Part shown: positions 48,629-52,303 of the stretch, in pieces | How the letters are laid out: each line of letters begins with the position of its first letter | Position numbering within the stretch: position 1 is the stretch's first letter | NCBI GenBank assembly: GCA_013388455.1 | Contig: JACAFF010000040.1 | Location: 1 to 64,000, forward strand | Direction of reading: 5' to 3' | From: Nitrospirota bacterium | Lineage (GTDB): Bacteria > Nitrospirota > Thermodesulfovibrionia > Thermodesulfovibrionales > SM23-35 | Length of the DNA: 64,000 nt | Notes under the pieces: model-generated | What the model was told of the DNA's origin: nothing | The model's database searches: none | What the model saw: the letters and a program-made list of their open reading frames with translations, nothing else | Program-made: the position numbers and the translations under genes

Positions 48629-50275
48629 TCAGCTTGCGGATATTGACTCTTGATATTCTTCCCATAACTTTTCCTTGGTTATACCTATATATATGAAATC
48701 CCATGGGAGAATTTCCTGAAAATCCTTTTTCCTGAAAATAAAAAAATCTCTGTTTATTCCTTCTGCTGCCTTTGTCCAGTCATCGAAATGGGGTACCCTC
48801 TCAAGAACTTTCGAAACCCTTCTGTCGCCGAGAGAGAACAATCCTTGCATATATGCATATTTGGGCACATCATGAAAAACTCTGATTCCTTTTACTGGCA
48901 TAAGGCTTTTTTTAATAAGCTTCAGCCTTTCTTTAACCTCTAATGCGGTTTCCATCGGATGCCATTGAAATGGAGTAAATGGTTTCGGCACGAACGTACT
49001 TATACTCAGTGTAACAGTTCCCTTCATTGAAATTTCCCTTATCTTTCTCACCAAACTTATAATCCCCATTATGTCATCTCTTGTTTCTGTTGGTAAACCA
49101 ACCATAAAATACAGCCTGAGATTTTCGATTCCTTCAGAAAAGACATGTTCTGATATAGACAGAATATCCCCCTCCGAAATGTTTTTACCGATTACTTTTC
49201 TTAATCTTTCTGTGCCAGCTTCAGGGGCGATAGAGATGCTTTTATTTCCTTTTAAGCGGGTTATCAGGTCAATACTTTTTGGGCTTGCTCTCAGGGATGT
49301 AATAGAAAATTCTACTCCCTTAATTGTTAATATATCTTTTATATTTGGATAATCAGAAAGAGAAGGTCCGATTAACCCTATCCTTTGAGTCATAGCCTTC
49401 CCTTCATTAATCTCATTATGAATGGATTCTAAGGTCTTTCTGCGTAAAGGTGAATATACTTTCCCTGTCATACAAAACCTACAATTCCATGGACATCCCC
49501 TCATGGTTTCAATCAGATACATCTCAGAGAATTCTGTCTCTGAAGTAATAATAGATGTCCTGATTTTTGAAAGAGAAATATCCTTTACTGATCGTTTACT
49601 GATTGTTGCTGGTGCGTTTCCTTCTGGAAGTCTATTCAATATTCTTCCTTTATTGTCATAAGTTATCTTATAGAATTTTGGTATATATAATCCTTCTACA
49701 GATAGAGATTTCAATAAAACTTCTGATTTATTCGAAGATGACTTATAGATATCGATAAATTCAGTAAGCATCTCTTCAGCTTCACCTATAAAACAAACGT
49801 CAAAGAAATCGGCAAGAGGTTCAGGATTGAAAAACATACATACTCCTCCAATTATGATTAAGGGATGATGTGACTTTCTATCGATGCTTCTTGGAGGGAT
49901 ATTTGATAATTCAAATATTTTTATGATATTCGGATAATCATTTTCAAAAGAGATAGAGAATGCAATCAAATCAAATCTGTTAAGAGTTTTTTTTGATTCC
50001 ATCGAAAAAAGTTCAGTTTCTGTTCTCAGATACTCATCGATATCTTTTTCTTCAGGAAGAAATACACGTTCACACACAACATCTTTCATATCGTTTAAAA
50101 GACCATAAATTCCTTGAAATCCAAGATTTGACATTCCTACATGATAAGTATTCGGATAAACAAGGGCGATATTAATTTTGCCACCAGGATCTTTAAAAAC
50201 TGTCCCTTTTTCTTTTGATAAAAGATAATCTGTTTTTTCTCTAAGTCTCTGGTTCACATCATCACCAGCACACAA
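48629..50275 (-). CDS. B12-binding-type radical SAM protein
   Basis: The 548-residue protein has an N-terminal cobalamin-binding-like domain (INIALVYPNTYHVGMSNLGFQ). A radical SAM core follows with ETMRGCPWNCRFCMTG and SIAPEAGTERLRKVIGK. Its substrate is unknown. Start is TTG 50275 overlapping the DUF3786 gene end; other starts inside are possible. It is in the division-related operon. Confidence 0.85.
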   Translation of the reverse strand: MCAGDDVNQRLREKTDYLLSKEKGTVFKDPGGKINIALVYPNTYHVGMSNLGFQGIYGLLNDMKDVVCERVFLPEEKDIDEYLRTETELFSMESKKTLNRFDLIAFSISFENDYPNIIKIFELSNIPPRSIDRKSHHPLIIIGGVCMFFNPEPLADFFDVCFIGEAEEMLTEFIDIYKSSSNKSEVLLKSLSVEGLYIPKFYKITYDNKGRILNRLPEGNAPATISKRSVKDISLSKIRTSIITSETEFSEMYLIETMRGCPWNCRFCMTGKVYSPLRRKTLESIHNEINEGKAMTQRIGLIGPSLSDYPNIKDILTIKGVEFSITSLRASPKSIDLITRLKGNKSISIAPEAGTERLRKVIGKNISEGDILSISEHVFSEGIENLRLYFMVGLPTETRDDIMGIISLVRKIREISMKGTVTLSISTFVPKPFTPFQWHPMETALEVKERLKLIKKSLMPVKGIRVFHDVPKYAYMQGLFSLGDRRVSKVLERVPHFDDWTKAAEGINRDFFIFRKKDFQEILPWDFIYIGITKEKLWEEYQESISAS

Positions 50276-50853
50276 AGCATTGCTATTGACCAGATTATAT
50301 CAATAGGCAACTGCATCTCGCATGTTGAATCAAAAAGTAAATCTGCTCTTGCAGGAAACTCATCGTCTTTCTCCCATAGAATAATCGTAACCGGTATCCT
50401 CGGAAAAGGAAAAAGTTCTATAGAGGCATCACCATAATGTTGTTTTTTTGCACACAGGCCCTCCCCCTTTTGTAGAAAAGCCTGTTTATTATTGCTATAT
50501 TTTTTTGCTAAGTTATCCAGTGGAAGAACATGGCTTCCCCTGAAGAACATGCTTCCACCTTTGATGTCTGATGGTGCTACGAGTTTTTTACTAAAAGGTA
50601 AATCCTTAGCATAAACCAGATACCAGAGGCATGAGTGACAGAAAAAATAATCATATTTTTTTAAAATCATTTCGCCTTCTGATGAATCGCTACTAATCTT
50701 CTTCAGAGGAGGTTTTACATAAAAGTCAAAGCAGAATGACCTTATATAATAGCCATCGGTTGAGTCATAACTAACTATTGCATTATTACTGACAGCAGAC
50801 GGATCAAGTTTACCCAAAATATCCCATGCTTTTTCTACGCCGGATGATAACAT
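50254..50853 (-). CDS. DUF3786 domain protein
   Basis: The about 199-residue protein reads MLSSGVEKAWDILGKLDPS at the front, then a beta-rich body with CHSCLWYLVYA and IPVTIILWEKDDEFPARAD, the DUF3786 pattern. Frames further upstream to 50961 run into a dispersed repeat, so the start at 50853 (or ATG 50868) is favoured. No ribosome site is clear. Function unknown. Its end overlaps the radical SAM gene by 22 bp. Confidence 0.75.
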   Translation of the reverse strand: MLSSGVEKAWDILGKLDPSAVSNNAIVSYDSTDGYYIRSFCFDFYVKPPLKKISSDSSEGEMILKKYDYFFCHSCLWYLVYAKDLPFSKKLVAPSDIKGGSMFFRGSHVLPLDNLAKKYSNNKQAFLQKGEGLCAKKQHYGDASIELFPFPRIPVTIILWEKDDEFPARADLLFDSTCEMQLPIDIIWSIAMLCVLVMM

Positions 50854-50909
50854 AATAAATGATATCATATAAATAAAATCATATTTTTTATAATTTTCAG
50901 TTATAATTA

Positions 50910-51034
50910 AATAATGCAGATATTGCTCGAAAATTTCTTTAACTCGATATACCCCCTTCATCCCCCCTTGCCAAAAGGGGGAATAGTAAAACCATCAGTT
51001 AAAAGTGCACTTTTTCTCGCAATATCTGATTATT
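50910..51034. repeat. Inverted-repeat-bounded element with GGGGG/CCCCC core (MITE-like)
   Basis: The left arm AATAATGCAGATATTGCTC (from 50910) is matched inverted by GCAATATCTGATTATT (to 51034) at about 20 of 24 positions. Between them lies CCCCCTTCATCCCCCCTTGC, then CAAAAGGGGGAAT, the same type as the holB insert. The left arm recurs at 31365-31399. No ORF is inside. Confidence 0.55.
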
Positions 51035-51049
51035 CTATTTGCGTTTTTC

Positions 51050-51058
51050 TGGTATACT
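51050..51058 (+). promoter_or_regulatory. Extended -10 promoter of the candidate selenoprotein gene
   Basis: TG-G-TATACT (51050-51058) is an extended -10. Start of transcription would fall at about 51064-51066, at the ATG, so the mRNA may be leaderless. No -35 or Shine-Dalgarno is seen. Confidence 0.45.
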
Positions 51059-51065
51059 AATAAAC

Positions 51066-51233
51066 ATGAAATGTAGATTCTGTGGTTCTATAGTAAGATT
51101 GAAAATAGGCTGAAAGGCTGTATCTTTATATTGCACGGGATGCAAAAAAATCTATCCTGTTAAAGATTATCTCCAGGAAATAGACGAACAAATCTGGGAG
51201 GAGATATCAATGCGGCCATGTGACAGGGCGTAG
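51066..51233 (+). CDS. Candidate selenoprotein: small dual-CXXC protein with in-frame TGA
   Basis: From ATG 51066 the frame runs 55 codons to TAG, interrupted by one TGA at 51111-51113 (codon 16). It reads MKCRFCGSIVRLKIG, then TGA, then KAVSLYCTGCKKIYPVKDYL and ends RPCDRA. The two CxxC motifs lie on each side of the TGA. From memory this matches the family of small dual-CXXC (seleno)proteins of anaerobes in which that place is Cys or Sec. A hairpin at 51131-51145 could be the SECIS. If no Sec is made, it is a pseudogene or carries a base error. The octahaem cytochrome follows directly. Confidence 0.6.
51131..51145 (+). promoter_or_regulatory. Putative bacterial SECIS hairpin
   Basis: TTGCA-CGGGA-TGCAA forms a 5-bp stem with G as second loop base, 22 nt after the TGA. 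This fits the loose rules for bacterial SECIS elements (apical G, 16-37 nt from UGA). It also encodes the second CxxC, so it may be coincidental. Confidence 0.4.
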
Positions 51234-51247
51234 AAGAGGAGGCATAT

Positions 51248-52303
51248 ACGAAAAAATTTCTACTTATCGGATATATTGCTTTGTTCTCTATCGTCTTCTG
51301 GATTAGTGATAATGCTTATTCAGAAGAAATTGCAAAAGAAGAAAGTTTTTTCAATTCCAGTCTCCATTACACAACAAGAGGGATGTCTTACTGGTATGAT
51401 AAATCTCGAGGGGGGCTTGAGACTATTACCGGTATCCCTTATACAAGCACGAAGCTTGACTGTTTAAATTGCCATGTATCCTCATGTGACAGATGTCATA
51501 AAACTGAAGTTGACAAAAAACTTTATTATTCTACAAAAGCTGCACAGAATCAAGATGTCTGTCTGTCCTGTCATAAGAGGGAAAAAGCCATCAAACAGAT
51601 AGACATAACAGCAAATCAGCAAGATATTCATTTCGCAAAAGGTATGCAATGCATGAACTGTCATTCAGCACGAGATGTTCATGGTGATGGGAATGAATAT
51701 TCTTCTATGAAACAGTCCGGAGCAATAGATGCATCATGTGAAAAATGTCATAGTTCTGTCAACCCAACCACTTCACACAAGATACACAGAGACAAACTTG
51801 AATGTAAAGCCTGTCATGTGCGACATGTGGTCAGTTGCAGTAATTGCCATATCGGAACACTGGTAAATGATCGCAAAAGGGTTGATATTAAACTTTCAGG
51901 GTGGATTTTTCTCATGAATTATAATGGAAAAGTGACTTCAGCTAACATGCAGAACTTTGTTGTTCCTGACAACAAGACATTTCTTATTTTTGCTCCACAG
52001 AACAGTCATTCGATTACGAAAGAAGGAAGGAAATGCGGTGACTGCCACGGAACTGACAACGTTAGGCAGGTCCAAAGTGGGAATATCAGGCTAACATGGC
52101 TCGAAGATGGAGAAGTCAAACATGTAAAAGGGATTATCCCTGTTGTTGAAGATGTTAAATATGAATGTATATATCAGAATTACAAAGATGGGGAATGGAT
52201 TCCTATTGAGAATCCACCTGAGCCAGGACTTCAGTATGCTGGTTTCGGGACACCATTGACAAAAGAACAATTAAAAAAGCTATCAATGCCTATGGGCAGA
52301 TAA
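51248..52303 (+). CDS. Octahaem c-type cytochrome, exported
   Basis: There are eight CxxCH motifs: CLNCH, CDRCH, CLSCH, CMNCH, CEKCH, CKACH, CSNCH and CGDCH. A signal peptide KKFLLIGYIALFSIVFW precedes ISDNAYSEE. The signal requires a start before TTG 51281. The best is ACG 51248, 5 nt after GAGGAGG, which would initiate with Met; no normal start exists in frame. It is a periplasmic electron carrier, perhaps for respiratory reduction. It follows the candidate selenoprotein by 14 bp and may be co-transcribed. Confidence 0.88.
   Translation, partial: TKKFLLIGYIALFSIVFWISDNAYSEEIAKEESFFNSSLHYTTRGMSYWYDKSRGGLETITGIPYTSTKLDCLNCHVSSCDRCHKTEVDKKLYYSTKAAQNQDVCLSCHKREKAIKQIDITANQQDIHFAKGMQCMNCHSARDVHGDGNEYSSMKQSGAIDASCEKCHSSVNPTTSHKIHRDKLECKACHVRHVVSCSNCHIGTLVNDRKRVDIKLSGWIFLMNYNGKVTSANMQNFVVPDNKTFLIFAPQNSHSITKEGRKCGDCHGTDNVRQVQSGNIRLTWLEDGEVKHVKGIIPVVEDVKYECIYQNYKDGEWIPIENPPEPGLQYAGFGTPLTKEQLKKLSMPMGR

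Follow-up and report, generated by a model that had tools for sequence, protein, structure and literature searches.

A probable dual-CxxC selenoprotein gene of family NF041197 with a conserved SECIS-like hairpin and an apparently leaderless mRNA in a Nitrospirota genome

Results

Gene content of the locus

The window, i.e. the whole 64,000-nucleotide stretch of Nitrospirota DNA analysed here, carries a short gene that is missing from a plain ORF listing and lies directly upstream of a gene for a c-type cytochrome (Table 1). With its single in-frame TGA read as selenocysteine (Sec, U), the gene encodes MKCRFCGSIVRLKIGUKAVSLYCTGCKKIYPVKDYLQEIDEQIWEEISMRPCDRA, followed by TAG, with the layout MKCRFCGSIVRLKIG-U-KAVSLYCTGCKK...RPCDRA. 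A preliminary description of the locus had reported a CxxC-TGA-CxxC frame of 55 codons with coding quality on both sides of the TGA, and its account of the sequence was correct at every point. Members of the same protein family were found in 152 of the 396 Nitrospirota genomes surveyed. As these homologues keep the frame on either side of the TGA or of a Cys codon in its place, the frame is not due to chance.

Table 1. Features of the selenoprotein locus in the window.
Feature	Position	Strand	Basis
Extended -10 TGGTATACT of a likely leaderless transcript	51050..51058	+	TATAAT-like box in 12/12 members from the same taxonomic family
CDS for 55-aa dual-CxxC selenoprotein	51066..51233	+	Translation with TGA=U, Sec at codon 16, stop TAG
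First CxxC (C3, C6), putative metal ligands	51072..51083	+	Invariant in 27-sequence alignment
Selenocysteine TGA, in-frame, codon 16	51111..51113	+	TGA in 105/111 family members, TGC/TGT in 6
Bacterial SECIS-like hairpin UUGCA-CGGGA-UGCAA	51131..51145	+	Family-conserved pairing, third positions of Cys codons C, loop common to selD
Second CxxC (C23, C26), putative metal ligands, overlapped by hairpin	51132..51143	+	Invariant in 27-sequence alignment; codon positions
Octahaem c-type cytochrome, downstream neighbour	51248..52303	+	Pfam Cytochrome_C7; likely ACG start 51248 after GGAGG

Membership of family NF041197 and identity of codon 16

With C put for U, the protein scored 56.3 bits against the NCBIfam model NF041197 (NF041197.2, CxxC_Se_CxxC, 'dual CXXC motif small (seleno)protein'; cut-off 40), aligned over positions 1-52 of 53; in the genome scan the window member scored 46.2 bits. 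The family of small dual-CXXC (seleno)proteins named in the preliminary description is therefore NF041197. The same model was matched by each of the 27 sequences in a diverse alignment, and C3, C6, U16, C23 and C26 are invariant among them. NF041197 appears as 'Dual CXXC motif small protein (hypothetical protein OS_HP3)' in a table of a 2026 review (PMC13188914), and OS_HP3 is listed among prokaryotic selenoproteins in a table of a 2022 review (PMC9312934). These two tables, in which OS_HP3 is credited to Zhang and Gladyshev 2007, are the basis of the identification. In a 2025 deep-learning paper (PMC12013277), the OS_HP3 of Desulfosarcina widdelii is reported as missed by the predictor described there. 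The selenoprotein is thus of a kind already known. The window member and NF041197 agree in length, in both CxxC motifs, in the Sec/Cys position and in the C-terminal CDR/CNR motif, with no difference in kind; within the family, the window member is marked by low GC, by the weakness of its SECIS stem and by an mRNA that is likely leaderless.

A contig scan with the window protein as single query gave no matches; when a closer alignment served as the query, 45 good loci and one dubious partial match were obtained. The titles of the 45 loci nearly all name Nitrospirae or a lineage of Nitrospirae, and the named relatives are almost all metagenome assemblies of Nitrospirae or Thermodesulfovibrionales. 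Codon 16 was read at 111 Nitrospirota loci fetched for this purpose, and is TGA at 105, TGT at four and TGC at two, with no other codon at any of them. Cys homologues, proposed earlier as a check, thus exist at six of the 111 loci, and a member with neither Cys nor Sec, which would have spoken against a selenoprotein, was found at none. One Cys/Sec pair (L126 in G164 and L114 in G178) lies inside a single genus, with SelB encoded in both genomes.

Genetic neighbourhood

By our own count, eight CxxCH motifs are present in the downstream protein, which matched c-type cytochrome families, as expected from the earlier reading of an octahaem cytochrome. In the start region (51238-51253), an ACG at 51248 follows GGAGG where relatives have ATG; the gene seems to begin at this ACG, which would be either a near-cognate start codon or the result of a point error. 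On the other side of the selenoprotein gene, a divergent DUF3786 protein is encoded at 50254-50961 on the reverse strand; this protein is found upstream in seven loci.

The order of the two genes had suggested that the selenoprotein is an electron-transfer partner of the cytochrome. They are on the same strand, separated by 47 nt from the listed cytochrome ORF and by less from its likely ACG start, and the pair recurs in five of the 111 loci, all in the taxonomic family of the window. However, the remaining 106 loci lack the pair and have varying neighbours; downstream these are often rplM-rpsI (L13/S9, identified by eye), a YacP-type nuclease or a CxxCxxCC protein. Furthermore, the N-terminus of the cytochrome looks by eye like a signal peptide, with which the protein would be exported, but the selenoprotein has none. 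In some relatives, promoter-like sequences lie between the two genes, and the cytochrome gene there seems to be transcribed from a promoter of its own. A redox partnership is thus very unlikely, and as a general rule it is rejected by the comparison of the 111 neighbourhoods; the link would be a local one, and on present evidence the cytochrome does not appear to be part of the system.

A putative metal-chelating CxxCxxCC protein is encoded directly 3' of the selenoprotein gene, or overlapping it, at 14 loci (L086, L100, L102, L116 and ten others). The one example scanned fell just under the cut-off of Pfam CxxCxxCC. This protein is a possible functional partner of the selenoprotein.

Selenium machinery

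The genome that contains the window (2.1 Mb, 99.4% complete) was searched for selA, selB, selD and tRNA-Sec, as the preliminary description had advised, and all four were found: tRNA-Sec at 73.2 bits, SelB at 364 bits, SelA at 622 bits and SelD at 379 bits, the last with a TGA in frame close to the N-terminus. Three Fdh-alpha-type (formate-dehydrogenase) frames also include a TGA, within (C/Q)AR-x-UHS. The genome also has a second SelD-like sequence, which is split (L049/L052; G000 contig C3, 119652-120046).

Across the phylum, SelB scored over the cut-off in 140 of the 152 genomes with the NF041197 family, compared with 32 of the 244 without it (Fisher p ~1e-59, uncorrected for kinship). The 12 family-bearing genomes lacking a full SelB match were re-examined. 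Nine have TGA at codon 16, and tRNA-Sec was found in eight of these, with SelB in pieces in some; the other three have Cys. Among the Cys-codon genomes, two (G242 and G186) have neither SelB nor tRNA-Sec, and a third (G244; contig C97, L018) has SelB fragmented into several pieces, as if its Sec system were decaying. SelB is present in G338, where tRNA-Sec was not found, and both are present in G164 and G236. Two SelB proteins over the cut-off were seen in several genomes from the taxonomic family of the window (G164, G178, G282, G284 and G356), and two tRNA-Sec genes in some genomes (G164, G140 and G308).

SECIS-like hairpin

The preliminary description had placed a 5-bp hairpin with G in the apical loop 22 nt after the TGA, and both coordinates and pairing agree. 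UUGCA (51131-51135) pairs with UGCAA (51141-51145) around the loop CGGGA (51136-51140), which has G at loop positions 2-4 and begins 22 nt past the TGA. The window member therefore has a G-containing loop within the 16-37 nt past the UGA expected of a bacterial selenoprotein gene, and the position is conserved in the family. When the base following the TGA is numbered 0, the pairs of the family hairpin are 16-32, 17-31, 18-30, 19-29, 20-28 and 21-27. In the 105 TGA rows these six pairs form in 97.1% of cells; pairing falls to 18-54% when the partner is slid by 1-3 bases, and is 94.4% on average (maximum 95.4%) when partners are shuffled among rows.

Pairs 18-30 to 20-28 coincide with both TGY codons in the second CxxC. 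The third position of these codons is C in 101 and 99 of the 105 rows, as compared with 67 and 56 for the first-CxxC codons in these proteins; among the Cys rows, each of the two second-CxxC codons ends in C in three of six. The hairpin forces TGC at the second CxxC. Relative to synonymous recodings with local codon usage, hairpin stability has a mean z of -2.1 over the Sec rows, against -0.3 over the six with Cys, and the z of the window member itself is 0.0. In the window member, Watson-Crick pairing is kept from 17-31 to 21-27; its 17-31 pair is U-A, as compared with C-G in 102 of the 105 rows. The selD hairpin of the same genome, UAAGUC-CGGGA-GACUUA, located 16 nt past the selD TGA, has the same CGGGA loop.

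In isolation the window hairpin has an energy of -3.2 kcal/mol and ranks 103 of 105 in stability within the family (third weakest). This is weaker than the limit of -7.5 kcal/mol in the general bSECIS model (PMC13188914), where the segment meant by the limit is ambiguous in the text of the review. Minimum-energy folding of the wider window RNA preferred a different structure (-9.2 kcal/mol), and an Rfam search of the window matched two tRNAs and no SECIS. As the lone window RNA does not fold into the hairpin as its minimum-energy structure, comparative evidence was relied on, and the case for a real hairpin here comes from family conservation and not from the window's own sequence alone.

The rank and the competing fold could also indicate that the gene is a decaying selenoprotein gene, in which the SECIS is weakened and the UGA is poorly read or acts as a stop. 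Relatives provide a path for such a loss, with a Cys codon and fragmented SelB in one genome and a Cys codon without SelB and tRNA-Sec in two others. However, both CxxC motifs, the frame and the stop are intact in the window member, and its Sec machinery is complete. The stem keeps five Watson-Crick pairs, the CGGGA loop is common to selD, and the lower energies are explained by the low local GC content (36%). Decay is accordingly a highly improbable account of this gene.

Promoter region

The preliminary description had proposed an extended -10 almost at the ATG and hence a leaderless mRNA. TGGTATACT ends 7 nt upstream of the ATG, and no Shine-Dalgarno sequence was seen upstream of this ATG. 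The spacing is shared by all 12 members read from the taxonomic family of the window, in which a TATAAT-like hexamer begins 11-14 nt before the ATG; in shuffled upstream sequences, used as the control, the count was 0.9 on average and at most 5 of 12. This conserved box supports a leaderless mRNA. Among the 77 ATG-starting members read phylum-wide, 30 have a TATAAT-like hexamer (mean of 10 in shuffles) and 33 have a Shine-Dalgarno-like sequence. Judging by these counts, the leaderless arrangement looks branch-specific, i.e. like a trait of the window's branch and some others and not of the whole NF041197 family.

Structural model

An AF2 model built with the 27 sequences as input (mean pLDDT 78, pTM 0.53) has strands at 9-14, 19-23 and 29-31 in a zinc-ribbon-like beta order, with Sec16 in the turn joining the first two strands. 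Structural comparison gave matches with Z up to 3.8, mostly to Rpb9-type ribbons; the Foldseek E-values were above 0.5, with none below 0.001. When solved structures were searched by sequence, no hit fell below an E-value of 0.015, and a Pfam search with the selenoprotein gave nothing over the cut-off. The protein resembles zinc-ribbon proteins (Rpb9/TFIIS-type, Trm112, topoisomerase I C-terminal ribbons) in its CxxC...CxxC spacing and modelled strand order, with weak structural matches, but differs from them in the Sec at the tip of the beta-hairpin and in the lack of a Pfam match over the cut-off. The model is consistent with a metal-bound ribbon that may present an exposed selenolate as its reactive group; the residue after Sec16, usually a basic one, may help it. 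The C-terminal Cys, a possible resolver of a selenenyl-sulfide, is not universal in the family. A redox or an electrophile- or metal-handling role may be suggested for the protein.

Discussion

The locus almost certainly carries a true selenoprotein gene of the NF041197 (OS_HP3) family, in a Thermodesulfovibrionales-type Nitrospirota genome; its UGA16 would be decoded as Sec via the hairpin to give a probably zinc-ribbon-like product. The candidate put forward in the preliminary description is borne out by the frame, the family match, the Cys/Sec interchange at codon 16, the complete Sec machinery, the conserved SECIS-like hairpin and the co-occurrence of the family with SelB. That the TGA is a mutated Cys codon, in an ordinary pseudogene or through a sequencing error, is refuted by the comparative data and is exceedingly improbable: the six relatives with TGC or TGT at codon 16 would speak for it, but TGA stands at that same codon in 105 separate genomes.

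For the selenoprotein reading, the following course is proposed. Transcription would begin at the ATG or adjacent to it, and translation would proceed as far as UGA16. There, SelB would bind the hairpin that the second CxxC codons form and would supply Sec-tRNA-Sec, for whose synthesis SelA would use selenophosphate from SelD. The product would most likely be a small zinc-ribbon-like domain with one metal on C3/C6 and C23/C26, and its reactive residue would be Sec16, exposed at the beta-hairpin tip.

New here are the apparent lack of a leader on the mRNA and an RNA signal within the codons of the second CxxC. It seems rather likely that a leaderless selenoprotein mRNA is a conserved trait of the window's taxonomic family, such that a ribosome starting at the very 5' end carries out SelB-dependent Sec insertion at codon 16, with the SECIS no more than ~80 nt from the transcript start and the CxxC codons doubling as SECIS, which would lock protein and RNA constraints together. 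The literature on leaderless selenoprotein mRNA yielded nothing obviously on point, a weak sign of novelty.

This gene is missed by gene finders that stop at TGA, and the NF041197 family is widespread in Nitrospirota. The Sec and Cys members in genomes with SelB present, decayed or absent form a natural series in which to study how selenium use is lost. The conserved leaderless promoter offers a testable system for Sec insertion on a leaderless mRNA.
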